The translations under genes were made by a program, and so were the position numbers. 60,454 nucleotides of DNA, from contig JADFDJ010000013.1 of assembly GCA_018262895.1 (NCBI GenBank), forward strand, positions 1 through 60,454. Reading direction: 5' to 3'. Under the pieces are notes generated by a model. It saw only the letters and a program-made list of their open reading frames with translations, was not told the origin of the DNA and did not search any database. The stretch comes from Methanomassiliicoccus sp. Its GTDB lineage: Archaea > Thermoplasmatota > Thermoplasmata > Methanomassiliicoccales > Methanomassiliicoccaceae. This document shows positions 36 through 11,309 of this stretch, piece after piece (position 1 is the stretch's first letter; each line of letters opens with the position of its first letter).

Positions 36-67
36 AAGAGGCATCTCCATACGCGGAGACCTCTTTT
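36..67 (+). terminator. Hairpin followed by T-run, probable terminator
   Basis: Arms AAGAGG-CA-TCTCC and GGAGA-CCTCTT enclose a 6-nt loop (ATACGC) and run into TTTT. The only flaw is a two-base bulge. It would end a plus-strand transcript entering from the left edge. The gene it serves is outside the window. Confidence 0.5.
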
Positions 68-117
68 AACAAAGGTGTAAGATGTTTTTATAGCGATGGC
101 ATCCAATCTATCACCGA

Positions 118-672
118 GTGAGGGATATGCGTTCTGAGAGGAGCGATTGGCAGATGGAGGAGCAGATCCTCAAAAAACAGCTGGGCCTGCTGGCGGCGGC
201 GATCAGGGTGGAGACCTACGGGAGAGACTTCTACCTGAGGATGAGCGAGTGCGTCATGGACAAGGAGGGGAAGCTGATACTCCGAAGCCTGGCCAAGGAT
301 GAGAGGGACCACCGAACATGGCTCATAAGGCAGATCGACAGGATCTTTCCCGGTAAGAACGTGGATACCATCGTGCCGGACCCAGATTATGCTGACATCG
401 TTCCCCAACGTCCCTTCCCCGATCTCCCACCGGGGGCATGCTTCTCCTCCCAGGACGAGATCAAGGCAGTGGAGATGGGCATCGAGGTGGAGAAGGCCTC
501 CGTGCGCATGTACAGCGAGGTCGCTTCCCTGACCCGGGACCCGGAGCTGAAGGCGTTGATGCAGCGCCTCGTCGAGTGGGAGAGGGGGCATCAGAAGACC
601 CTCGAGGATAACCTGGAGTACCTGAAGAGGGGCGGAAGCTGGTATGGATACAATCCCATCCTGGAAGGCTGA
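118..672 (+). CDS. Rubrerythrin/ferritin-like domain protein
   Basis: Small all-helical protein of the ferritin-like diiron superfamily. Metal-ligand patterns can be seen: a Glu in ETYGRDFY, DERDH near residue 60, a Glu in EVEKAS and EWERGH near residue 150, spaced as in rubrerythrin-type four-helix bundles. No rubredoxin CxxC domain is present, so it is an erythrin-like variant. In anaerobes such proteins usually reduce peroxide or handle iron, and the position beside an HdrD-like reductase fits an oxygen-sensitive anaerobe. The start is uncertain: GTG 118, ATG 127 or ATG 154. A TATA-like TTTTTATAG at 85-93 favours a leaderless 118 or 127, while GAGAGGAG before 154 would serve as a ribosome site. 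Confidence 0.7.
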   Translation: MRDMRSERSDWQMEEQILKKQLGLLAAAIRVETYGRDFYLRMSECVMDKEGKLILRSLAKDERDHRTWLIRQIDRIFPGKNVDTIVPDPDYADIVPQRPFPDLPPGACFSSQDEIKAVEMGIEVEKASVRMYSEVASLTRDPELKALMQRLVEWERGHQKTLEDNLEYLKRGGSWYGYNPILEG

Positions 673-6076: not shown

Positions 6077-6730
6077 TCAGACCTCTAGGCCAGCAGGTCC
6101 GCTGACGGACGGAGCGGCCTGCTCCGCCGGTCCCTTGAACCCTTTGGCCACGATATATATCTCCGAGCTGCTGGAGCGAGAGGCCTTGGGGGAGTGCAGG
6201 CGGACGGAGGAGAAGCTCTTCTTGACCTCCGACAGGAAGTCGTTCATCATGTCCCCCTCGAAGATCTTCATGACCAGGGAGCCGCCGGGCCTCAGGGTCC
6301 GGCGGGCGAACTCCAGGGCATGGGTGCACAGGTCCACCGACCGCGCATGGTCCATGGAGTAGCTGCCGCTGATGTTGGGCGACATGTCGGAGATGACGGT
6401 GTCGGCCTTGCCACCGAGCAGGGACCTGAGCTCCTCCACCGTCTCCGGCCGGGTCATGTCCCCGCGGATGGTGCTCACCCCCTCCAGGGGAGCGATGTGC
6501 TGCAGGTCCACCCCCACCACCTTCCCCTTTGGCCCCACGCGCTCCTTGGCGATCTGCAGCCAACCTCCGGGGGCGGCGCCCAGGTCCACCACCGATCCGC
6601 CCTCCTGAAAGATCCCGAAGCGCTCGTCTATCTGATGGAGCTTGAACGAGGCCCGCGAGCGGTAGTTCAGCTGCTTGGCCTTGCGGTAGTAGAAGTCCTG
6701 CCTCCTCTCCTTGAGCCAGCGCTTGCTCAT
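6077..6730 (-). CDS. rlmE: 23S rRNA 2'-O-ribose methyltransferase RlmE (FtsJ/RrmJ)
   Basis: SAM-dependent 2'-O-methyltransferase that modifies a uridine of 23S rRNA in the peptidyl-transferase region. The Rossmann SAM motif VDLGAAPGGW is at 49-58. The catalytic K-D-K-E tetrad is complete: K30 (SFKL), D115 (SDMSPN), K155 (VMKIFEG), E190 (SSEIYIV). The core ends near residue 200; the last 17 residues form a low-complexity tail. It is divergent from purM across an 88-bp gap. A CTTTAAG TATA-like element about 25 nt before the start suggests a leaderless message. Confidence 0.92.
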   Translation of the reverse strand: MSKRWLKERRQDFYYRKAKQLNYRSRASFKLHQIDERFGIFQEGGSVVDLGAAPGGWLQIAKERVGPKGKVVGVDLQHIAPLEGVSTIRGDMTRPETVEELRSLLGGKADTVISDMSPNISGSYSMDHARSVDLCTHALEFARRTLRPGGSLVMKIFEGDMMNDFLSEVKKSFSSVRLHSPKASRSSSSEIYIVAKGFKGPAEQAAPSVSGPAGLEV

Positions 6731-7850: not shown

Positions 7851-7873
7851 GCCCTCCTACGGCCGGTCTGTCG

Positions 7874-9499
7874 TCAACGCCTGCCAGTAAGGGACCACAT
7901 CTCCGTTCCACGCTCACGGAAATGGACCACCTTGCGCTCTTCCAGCAGCTCCTCTAGGACCTTCTGCAGGTGCACGTCCTCTATGTTGGTCAGGGACGAA
8001 AGCTCGGAATATGAGAGGTTCATCTCCCCCAGCTCCCGGATGACCCTCTTCTTGTAGTCGGCCTTCAGGATCTCCGGTATCTCCTTCTTGGGCTTCCTCT
8101 TCCTGGTAAGTAAGAGGACCCCCGCCACGATCGCAACGATGATGACGATGAAGGATGGCCACTCCACCGTGGTGCCGGTCACGAAGCTCTGGGTCTCGCC
8201 GCCTACGGTTACCTCGTGCGTCCCGTCGCCCAGGTTTGTGGCCCGGAAGGTGATGTTCTTGCTCTCCCCCGGCTCCAGGGCGACCCTCTCGGAGGCCACC
8301 TGCTCCCCGTCCAGGATCATGGTGAGGTCGTAGCTGCCGGAGCTGTTCCCCTCGTTCACGATCGCTATGCTCACGGTAATGGACCCGCCGCGGTTGGTCA
8401 TCAGGACCAGGGGCCACCACATCTCGTTGACCTCCATCTTGACCTGGAAGTCCTGGACGGCCAGGCGGGCCAAGGTGCCGCCCGAGGCCGCGAACACCGC
8501 CAGGGCCCCGGTGTTGCCGATGTAGCTCCTTACCTCCCAGGTCACAGTTGTCTCCGAAATCGGCGATAGACGGCTCCAGGACCCTGCATCCAGCTGGTAC
8601 AGTCCCATGATCGTGGAGCCTCGGGGCAGCGCGGAGGTGTCCAGCCCCACCACGATCTCCGACATGGGAGAGATGCTCGCCTTCACCAGTTTGCCGTTCC
8701 CCAGGTACCCGCTGAAGTTGTAGACCGCGACCGTTTCCGCACCTGGGGGGCCGTTGGGCAAAGACGAGGCGTTGGCCGCGGTCAGAGAGATGCGGCTGGG
8801 CACCATGCCGTCGGTGGTGGTGATGGAGGTACCTTCCGGAAGGTGGATGCTGAACCGGCCCGTCCTGTCGGTGGCTATCACCGTCTCCAGGGTTTTCCCG
8901 TTGATGTCGGTGCCGACCACGGTCTCCTTCCCCAGGATGTCGACGATCACGAAGTTGTACGAGCTCCCGCCCACCGGTATGTCCACCAGCAGGTAGTTTA
9001 TGTTGAAGCTGAGCCCGTCGCCCTGGGCATCGTTCTGCGGGGTCCCGGTGTCCACGAACTCCCAGGACCAGATGGCGGTCACCGATTCCCCCGCGGACAG
9101 CGGACCGATCAGAAGCTGGTTCTCATCGGTGGGGTGGTCCGGGAGGTCCCCCAGCGTGGAGGGTAAGGAGAGGGATGTGTGGAGGCCGTTGGCCGAGAGG
9201 TGGAACCGCAGGTACTTGCTGAGGGCCGCCCCGTCGCCGCGGAGATCGGTCTCCTGGACGTTGCTTATCCATATCATGAGGTTGGCGGTCATGGAGCCGG
9301 CGTTGCGGATCTCGATGGTGGTGGTCCCCGTGTCCCCGGGCATCATGGAGCCGGCGCTCCAGGCGACGCTCCCCTGGCCTCCCAGGACCAGGTCCACGGC
9401 CCCGCTGGCAGCGTCCGCCCCCGGCAAAGGCAGGGATACCGATAGCAACAGGAGGGCTATGCAGGCGGCCGCCGTGCCGAGGGGACGTCCCCGCCTCAT
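7874..9499 (-). CDS. TasA-like membrane protein with cytoplasmic winged helix
   Basis: 541 aa; last gene of the SipW operon. A signal peptide (RRGRPLGTAAACIALLLLSV, cut near ADA) precedes a domain that copies the TasA/camelysin layout (VDLVLGGQGSV, MPGDTGTTTIEIRNAG, then a jelly-roll-like region with GDG). After beta-rich middle domains comes a CARDB/APHP-like module (SYDLTMILDGEQVASERV), one membrane helix at about 447-468, basic residues KRKPKKE, then a cytoplasmic segment (about 475-541) predicted as winged helix (LGEMNLSYSELSSLTNIED, ERKVVHFRERGTEMW). That order suggests a surface receptor able to signal to DNA, or a fibre anchor; this is inference. ATG 9499 overlaps the previous stop as ATGA. 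Confidence 0.7.
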   Translation of the reverse strand: MRRGRPLGTAAACIALLLLSVSLPLPGADAASGAVDLVLGGQGSVAWSAGSMMPGDTGTTTIEIRNAGSMTANLMIWISNVQETDLRGDGAALSKYLRFHLSANGLHTSLSLPSTLGDLPDHPTDENQLLIGPLSAGESVTAIWSWEFVDTGTPQNDAQGDGLSFNINYLLVDIPVGGSSYNFVIVDILGKETVVGTDINGKTLETVIATDRTGRFSIHLPEGTSITTTDGMVPSRISLTAANASSLPNGPPGAETVAVYNFSGYLGNGKLVKASISPMSEIVVGLDTSALPRGSTIMGLYQLDAGSWSRLSPISETTVTWEVRSYIGNTGALAVFAASGGTLARLAVQDFQVKMEVNEMWWPLVLMTNRGGSITVSIAIVNEGNSSGSYDLTMILDGEQVASERVALEPGESKNITFRATNLGDGTHEVTVGGETQSFVTGTTVEWPSFIVIIVAIVAGVLLLTRKRKPKKEIPEILKADYKKRVIRELGEMNLSYSELSSLTNIEDVHLQKVLEELLEERKVVHFRERGTEMWSLTGRR

Positions 9500-10026
9500 A
9501 CGGGACGGTAGTATACCCTCACCTCTTCCAACACCGGGGTCACGCCCGGTGAGTCGCTGGTCAAGACCGCCCGCCACTGCACGTACCGCCCCTCCGTGCC
9601 CTCCAGAGATGCGTAGGTTCCGCTGCCCAGAACCTGCCACCCAGCATCTGGCTCTCCGGACGAAAGGTTGTCGGACACGCGTATCTCCAGGCTCACGGTG
9701 GTGGAGGATGGAAGGGTCCGGTCCCAGAAGGCGTAATCGAACTTCGCCCCGTTCATGCCCGTATCATGGACCGCTGAGGTGAATATGCCCGTTCCCGTGG
9801 AGGCAAGGATGATGCTCCCTGGGAAGGTAACCAGGTCCACATTGACGCCCGTGCCGGACGCGAACTCCGGCTGTGCGGTCTGCCTCCAGGAGGAGGGGGT
9901 CCAGGCGGCGAAGTTGTTCCCTGCGGAGACCTCGGTGTCCACGGCGGTGCACAGAACCTCACCTGCCCCAATGGATAGCACCAGCACGGCAACGAGCAGG
10001 GGTGCCCAGCGCCTATGGGGCATCAT
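9496..10026 (-). CDS. Secreted protein with SipW-type signal peptide
   Basis: 176 aa. Its N-terminus (RRWAPLLVAVLVLSIGAGEV, then TAVDTEVSAGNNFAAWT) matches the signature of SipW-processed proteins: a hydrophobic helix followed by D-T-E-x-S-x-G-N-x-F. The same pattern occurs in the first gene of the operon (NDTETSSGNSFTAGT), so both look like substrates of the signal peptidase encoded between them. The rest is beta-rich and ends EVRVYYRPV, without a membrane anchor. Start ATG 10026 overlaps the peptidase stop (ATGATG; the second ATG, 10023, is equally possible). Confidence 0.72.
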   Translation of the reverse strand: MMPHRRWAPLLVAVLVLSIGAGEVLCTAVDTEVSAGNNFAAWTPSSWRQTAQPEFASGTGVNVDLVTFPGSIILASTGTGIFTSAVHDTGMNGAKFDYAFWDRTLPSSTTVSLEIRVSDNLSSGEPDAGWQVLGSGTYASLEGTEGRYVQWRAVLTSDSPGVTPVLEEVRVYYRPV

Positions 10027-10526
10027 TCGCCTCCCTCCTTGGGACCCTGGGCGCCGCCCTTCACGATGACTTCCTTGGCCTCGCTGAAGACCAACAGGGC
10101 TCCCAGGAGGATGATGAACGTCCAGCCAAGGGGTCCATGCAGGAAGCTCACCACGTGACCTAGATAGGGTGCGGTGAACGCTACCTTCCCCTCCACATCC
10201 CCGTAGGCCACGGCATACGGGTCCACGTCCTCGTTGGCGTCGCCCTTGGTGATGATGGTGGAGTTGGCGCCATCCATGGCCATTATGCGGTGGCAAACAT
10301 AGGACCCGTCTGAGGTCCTATAGCACGCCACATCCCCTACCTCCAGGTCCTCCGGCCGCTCCGGGGAGGTCACGGCCAGATCCCCCACGTTTATGGCAGG
10401 GGACATGCTCCCGGACCGCACCACGTCCAATCTCCATCCGAAGGCCGGTGCCAGAATGCCGGCCAGCGCCAACGCTAGGAACGCTGCTACCGCGACGGTC
10501 CCGATATGACGTGGCCTGACCCTCAC
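10023..10526 (-). CDS. sipW: Signal peptidase I, SipW/Sec11 type
   Basis: Membrane serine peptidase of 167 aa with the archaeal/endoplasmic-reticulum Ser-His-Asp arrangement. N-terminal helix (about 8-28), catalytic Ser40 in RSGSMSP, His79 in YVCHRI in place of the bacterial Lys, and Asp96 to Asp102 in KGDANEDVDP. A C-terminal helix (WTFIILLGALLVFSEA) is typical of SipW. It lies between two genes with SipW-type signal peptides, which makes it a dedicated peptidase rather than the housekeeping one. GTG start with GGAGG 7 nt upstream. Confidence 0.88.
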   Translation of the reverse strand: MRVRPRHIGTVAVAAFLALALAGILAPAFGWRLDVVRSGSMSPAINVGDLAVTSPERPEDLEVGDVACYRTSDGSYVCHRIMAMDGANSTIITKGDANEDVDPYAVAYGDVEGKVAFTAPYLGHVVSFLHGPLGWTFIILLGALLVFSEAKEVIVKGGAQGPKEGGE

Positions 10527-10557
10527 ATCAACCCTCCATGACCTCGCTCGTCCAGCT

Positions 10558-11142
10558 CTAGGTCTGGGTCAGGGTGTACTCGATGCTGAAGGTACAGATG
10601 TCGCCCTGTATCTCGTTCCCCACGGAGGTCGGGATCAGGTACTTTATGGACACCTTGGAGGTGGCCCCTCCCGCGAGCGAGCCCAGGTTCCAGCTGGTGG
10701 TGGCGGAGTTGACCGTGCCGCTGTAGGCGGTGGTCTCCGTCCCGTCGACAAGCCCGTTGCTGTTGCTGTCCACCCATACGGTTATCATCATGCTGCTCCC
10801 GAGCTCGCCGGAGTCGGTGCCCAGCAGCGCCTCGGGCTCCGATGTGGAGCCGGGTCCGTTGTTTATGTTCGTCAGGCGCCCGCTCAGGGTACCGGGGGAG
10901 TTGCCGGCGTTGGTCAGCAGCATGGTCTTGAACCCCGTGGAACCGGGGACCAGGTTCTCGGCGGTGAACTCGGTAGAGGCCCAGGGATTCTGGGCGTCCA
11001 CGGTCAGATCGATTGTCCCGGCAGTGAACGAGTTGCCGCTGCTGGTCTCGGTATCGTTGAAATACGCGTACAATACCCCGCTGCTCATTACAGCGACCAT
11101 TGACAGCGCCAGAAATGCGATGATAGCTCTTCTCTTGATCAT
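10558..11142 (-). CDS. TasA/camelysin-like surface fibre protein
   Basis: 194 aa; first gene of the operon. MIKRRAIIAFLALSMVAVMS is the signal helix, followed by YFNDTETSSGNSFTAGTIDL, close to the consensus of the TasA/CalY family, whose members polymerise into biofilm fibres in Bacillus. The body contains the family's NAGNSPGTLSGRLTNI and DSNSNGLVDGTE-like segments. Archaeal bundling pili are built from TasA-related subunits, so an archaeal donor-strand fibre is plausible; this function is inferred. ATG 11142 is chosen because the signal peptide begins there. A TATA-like GTTATATTG lies about 75 nt upstream, giving a leader of roughly 50 nt. Confidence 0.8.
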   Translation of the reverse strand: MIKRRAIIAFLALSMVAVMSSGVLYAYFNDTETSSGNSFTAGTIDLTVDAQNPWASTEFTAENLVPGSTGFKTMLLTNAGNSPGTLSGRLTNINNGPGSTSEPEALLGTDSGELGSSMMITVWVDSNSNGLVDGTETTAYSGTVNSATTSWNLGSLAGGATSKVSIKYLIPTSVGNEIQGDICTFSIEYTLTQT

Positions 11143-11309
11143 GTACCCATCTCTCATCGGGTTGCCGAGGATGGAGCTGCTCGGTTCCCGGGACCCGTTG
11201 GACGAGGTTACAATATAACAGTTAGTATCTTGTTCGCCATCTTGGTAATCAGCGATAAATATTGGAAATAAAAATGGATGGCCAGCACTCTTAGCAAGGA
11301 AAGTACTAT

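Follow-up and report, generated by a model that had tools for sequence, protein, structure and literature searches.

Four genes on the minus strand of the window (the whole stretch of DNA that was analysed, 60,454 nucleotides) constitute a real TasA/SipW-type operon in an archaeon, and the cassette probably builds a TasA-type surface fibre, of which we infer the formation, the cleavage, the polarity and any biofilm function. On balance, we favour a reading in which these genes specify a TasA-type donor-strand fibre that is secreted and based in the membrane, with P0003 as starter, P0001 as shaft and P0004 as base. The complement of parts fits these three roles, since P0003 is donor-only, P0001 has both donor and acceptor, and P0004 is acceptor-only. 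Neither TasA/SipW systems nor archaeal TasA-like pili are new. What seems new is that three complementary parts come together and that the set occurs in two domains of life; no description of a starter-shaft-base composition was found in the literature searched, which did not take in the primary AbpA paper.

The window is an entire contig (G000:C4) of a 2.34 Mb genome, which is 99.7% complete. The initial annotation had placed four genes at 7874-11142, and these coordinates were confirmed, with all four ORFs on the minus strand (Table 1). It had also called the four genes translationally coupled, which stands for P0002, P0003 and P0004, joined by ATGA overlaps at P0002/P0003 and P0003/P0004; P0001 is separated from P0002 by 31 nt, so that strict coupling applies to three of the four genes only. 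The operon is flanked by two genes that are presumably a DUF531-like gene and purM. The archaeal host proposed earlier is borne out by a close cassette-bearing relative, Methanomassiliicoccales PtaU1.Bin030, whose P0004 is 94% identical, and the named relatives bearing the cassette are Methanomassiliicoccales and Methanomassiliicoccus MAGs. A search for a leader RNA element gave Rfam matches at chance level only. Upstream of P0001 (window 11207-11219), an inverted repeat, GTTA-N5-TAAC, overlaps a TATA-like box, TTATAT, and the stretch reaching to the P0001 ATG is conserved in two other loci (L027 and L028); the box and the repeat are possibly a promoter and an operator.

Table 1. Features of the cassette in window coordinates.
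Feature	Residues	Window position	Strand	Description
Cassette slot		7851..11309	.	between purM and DUF531-like gene
P0001		11142-10558	-	194 aa; TasA/camelysin-like fibre subunit
P0001 parts	1-26; 27-39; 40-194			signal peptide; donor-strand segment; jelly roll
P0001 YFNDTETSSGNSF	27-39	11026..11064	-	proposed donor strand after SipW-type cleavage A26|Y27
P0002		10526-10023	-	167 aa, GTG start; SipW-like ER-type signal peptidase
P0003		10026-9496	-	about 176 aa; donor-only protein
P0003 TAVDTEVSAGNNF	27-39	9910..9948	-	proposed donor strand; residue numbers as in P0001
P0004		9499-7874	-	541 aa; acceptor-only membrane protein
P0004 domain order				signal peptide, TasA jelly roll, further beta domain, CARDB, TM helix, cytoplasmic tail (predicted model mf3e481d73c35)
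P0004 jelly roll	35-172	8984..9397	-	TasA-like, directly after signal peptide
P0004 TM helix	447-467	8099..8161	-	from model secondary structure; hydrophobic stretch, then KRKPKK
P0004 cytoplasmic tail		7877..8098	-	helical, possibly winged-helix-like; low confidence, pLDDT about 29-66

P0001 is a TasA/camelysin protein, as had been suggested from its sequence. It matches PF12389 (4.9e-10, 40 bits against a cut-off of 22.5) and passes TIGR04088, the SipW-cognate signal model (29.9 bits, cut-off 19). A single-sequence search of PDB with P0001 alone gave no match; with a profile from an eight-sequence alignment, the best PDB matches were the Bacillus subtilis TasA fibre 8aur (3.9e-4) and then the TasA monomer 5of1 (9.7e-4), while AbpX came next, weakly (E 0.067-0.087), and AbpA was not among the matches listed. 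Structure prediction of 10558-11142, proposed earlier as a check against TasA, yielded a TasA jelly roll (pLDDT 77). The top Foldseek match of this model is again the fibre 8aur (E 7.9e-5, probability 1.00), which is its sole PDB match below 0.001; TM-scores of 0.44-0.51 are moderate, and alignments of 11 and 13 rows are shallow. Two further filament proteins, the CanA cannula protein and the 0406 filament subunit of Sulfolobus acidocaldarius, reached a probability of 1.00 with E > 0.001, and neither AbpA nor AbpX was among the 50 best fold matches. In a TasA fibre, each subunit is completed by the N-terminal strand of its neighbour (PMC9674648, PMC10151520). In the monomer model, P0001 residues 22-38 are unplaced (pLDDT < 50); the corresponding segment of TasA is its donor strand, and in the profile alignment, residues 27-39 are aligned with FNDIKSKDATF of TasA.

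The motif that follows the signal peptide of P0001, DTETSSGNSF, recurs in P0003 as DTEVSAGNNF, with D30, E32, N37 and F39 at identical residue numbers, so that the DTExSxGNxF signature noticed earlier in both small proteins holds. It is above chance, because P0001 passes TIGR04088 and because a profile of the TasA signal and donor segment, run against 509 sequences, finds the N-terminus of P0003 at E=2.1e-4, against E=1.3 for the best unrelated ORF of the window. Seven third-gene relatives match this profile at E < 0.05, and in 7 of 14 relatives the donor motif is weak (E of 1 or worse, or no match); in the third gene of L028 it is degenerate. None of 17 anchors of the P0004 type scored better than E 2.9.

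The initial annotation had read P0003 as a second TasA-like fibre protein. This was rejected: no Pfam or TasA profile is matched by P0003, its relatives of the same type are also without a TasA profile match, and the signal/donor segment alone is held in common. P0003 is instead a shell, made of a SipW-type N-terminus and a C-terminal beta module (GRYVQWRATLTTSD..TPVLQEVRIYY), and it lacks the middle part. Relatives in the alignment carry a kelch propeller at this place or, in a Methanofollis contig, a DUF2341 domain; this insert is missing from P0003 in the genus of the window. In most proteins of the P0003 type, a conserved Cys occupies the predicted P1 position (C|xxVDxE), which is Ala in TasA; this Cys is residue 26 of P0003 (window 9951-9949) and is also found in L029, L030, L033, L036 and L055-L057. 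A lipoprotein site was considered for this Cys and set aside, as by eye the preceding residue does not fit a lipobox.

P0004 has a TasA fold but no donor strand. It had been described as a large membrane protein; the jelly roll without donor strand had been missed. Pfam gave CARDB (9.3e-8) and a weak PF12389 match. An hhalign comparison of P0001 35-194 with P0004 26-175 reached 98.1% (E 6.6e-14), and a QGDxLSFxIxYxL strand is common to both proteins. In Foldseek, P0004 matched the TasA monomer 5of1 with probability 1.00 over 189 columns (TMt 0.49), at rank 46 and E 4.7e-3. In every anchor with its N-terminus present, the TasA homology starts at profile column 39-56, past the donor columns, with no N-terminal profile match in P0004; the first jelly-roll strand opens the mature anchors, as in ADA|ASGAVDL and AQA|QAPIDL. 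A winged-helix assignment for the tail of P0004, made by eye, is no more than a lead: the copy in the window has no Pfam match, the model is of low confidence there, and a winged-helix match was obtained for one relative only (0.0074, below the cut-off).

P0002 is an archaeal-type peptidase that probably acts as SipW does. It passes TIGR02228, the archaeal/ER-type model (78.9 bits against a cut-off of 51.85, 3.6e-22), and S40, H79 and D96 are invariant in an alignment of ten sequences, which gives a Ser-His rather than a Ser-Lys arrangement. The description as a SipW-type peptidase is kept in the sense of an accessory Ser/His signal peptidase travelling with P0001; it does not extend to the Bacillus SipW equivalog NF046067, for which P0002 is below the cut-off (73.4 bits against 190). 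The chromosomal slot is filled by the cassette in four genomes (G000, G003, G006 and G009) and empty in four others (G001, G005, G007 and G012), with the DUF531-like gene and purM adjacent. The P0002 family had no match at 1e-5 in exactly these empty-slot genomes, so the peptidase is dispensable at the family level and travels with the cassette. Loci of f2, another family of the same taxonomic order (L037-L043), have SMDG/HR peptidases beside secreted proteins starting GxGYAYTAxTVND..NSASA or GYSA..VTN, an arrangement that resembles a divergent SipW/substrate pair; one genome of this family (G293) gave a weak TasA match, 8.1e-7.

The gene set and its order recur in relatives, and all four genes are present in seven Methanomassiliicoccales regions. 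The same composition was found in contigs labelled Methanosarcinaceae, Methanococcoides, Methanofollis and several Dehalococcoidia, these being MAG labels. Among 400 genomes of the class, a true anchor occurs in six, all of which also have TasA (6/6), and the remaining weaker anchor matches cover CARDB or the middle region only. An independent instance comes from a Dehalococcoidales genome, which has a second, differently ordered cluster of a peptidase, a TasA, a donor-only protein with propeller-like repeats (2.2e-10) and an acceptor-only anchor (4.2e-23, columns 44-190). A donor-only member is not always present: at L053, a Chloroflexota locus, the third gene encodes another complete TasA. 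Peptidase and anchor-domain trees loosely grouped the Methanosarcinales and Chloroflexota copies, with support too low for a direction of transfer.

In the proposed mechanism, P0002 would cut the SipW-type signal peptides off both small proteins, P0001 and P0003, and free their N-terminal segments, as their shared motif suggests. P0001 would form the shaft: it combines a donor strand with a TasA jelly roll, which points to the insertion of each subunit's strand into the next, with the fold taken from prediction and the polymerisation from the likeness to TasA. P0003 may start or tip the fibre, much as TapA is proposed to supply TasA with its first strand (PMC9674648, PMC10151520); having a donor strand and no TasA domain, it could do only this. 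The propeller or other variable insert of its relatives is a probable adhesin, and the lack of the insert that would make a tip adhesin counts against that role in this genus. P0004, with a jelly roll and a TM helix and without a donor strand, could only receive the last strand, and so would anchor the fibre in the cell membrane. Further points against this model are the weak or degenerate donor motif in several third-gene relatives, the second TasA of L053, the moderate Foldseek TM-scores and the shallow alignments. Attachment or cell-cell cohesion is the likely role of such a fibre.

A plainer explanation, which we regard as possible but rather unlikely, is that the operon encodes an ordinary archaeal TasA/AbpA-type fibre and its peptidase, together with a secreted adhesin (P0003) and a TasA-domain surface protein with another job (P0004), without any starter or base logic. 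The motif of P0003 may indeed be a mere peptidase recognition signal, and at L053 two TasA proteins occur without a donor-only partner; however, the donor/acceptor complement is repeated in unrelated contigs, even in a differently ordered cluster, and the P0004 type is always without a donor strand.

It is very unlikely that P0001 does not polymerise at all and is displayed as a monomeric surface protein or acts as a camelysin-type metalloprotease, since its best fold match is the fibre form of TasA, bacterial and archaeal TasA homologues of the family assemble into filaments (PMC9674648, PMC10903470), and the HExxH zinc motif is absent from the P0001 sequence; what speaks for this idea is the name of the Pfam family, camelysin metallo-endopeptidase. 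P0002 could also be the general signal peptidase of the cell, incidentally placed in the operon, and no other S26 protein of this genome exceeds the cut-off of TIGR02228. This we hold to be highly improbable, because the genome has one other S26 protein, long and divergent, on contig C28, with ESKSM serine and IIHR histidine motifs, and because the four related genomes that lack the P0002 family also lack the rest of the cassette.

The starter-shaft-base fibre that we favour shares several features with known systems. Like tapA-sipW-tasA of Bacillus subtilis, the cassette has a TasA-fold subunit with a SipW-type signal, a dedicated signal peptidase of the ER type and, as proposed strand giver, another substrate of that peptidase (TapA in Bacillus). 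The gene order differs, the strand-only protein is not TapA and has propeller or other inserts in relatives, and a TasA-domain membrane protein is added. Archaeal TasA-like fibres have already been published (PMC10903470), and the archaeal bundling pili, AbpA of Pyrobaculum and ABPx/AbpX of Pyrodictium, are likewise archaeal TasA-like donor-strand filaments. In Bacillus cereus, sipW-tasA, calY and capP also pair subunits of the TasA family with SipW and add an accessory protein for assembly (PMC13082335); CapP is a DUF4047 chaperone-like protein, and the cassette has a TasA-domain membrane protein instead. In chaperone-usher pili, a comparable strand donation links a tip subunit, a shaft and a terminating subunit; the analogy is one of function only, and the cassette contains neither an usher nor a chaperone gene.

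How TasA-type fibres are started and anchored is poorly understood outside Bacillus subtilis, in which TapA fills part of this role and is not conserved even inside the genus. With its strand givers and receivers, membrane base and dedicated peptidase, the cassette would be a minimal fibre system for reconstitution. A wider proposal, which we advance tentatively and consider rather doubtful as a whole, is that a starter/shaft/base fibre with one dedicated peptidase has been exchanged between methanogens and Dehalococcoidia, and that in some lineages the cytoplasmic helical tail of the base could report attachment into the cell. The carriers are methanogens and Dehalococcoidia-labelled genomes, which can share anoxic habitats, and this raises the question of cell contact in such communities.

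Some loci depart from the usual arrangement. In L119 (G046, 6330-6667), no peptidase ORF of at least 90 aa lies between the TasA gene and the P0003 homologue, and the other three genes are present. In L030 (224-1303, on a contig shared with L047), tasA and the peptidase are in one frame and the TasA C-terminus is in another; this frame break is a frameshift or an assembly error in that MAG. The Dehalococcoidia-labelled L118 (G413:C40) has three TasA-family genes and a short P0003-type gene in a row, and its peptidase is encoded apart from the TasA genes, on the other strand.
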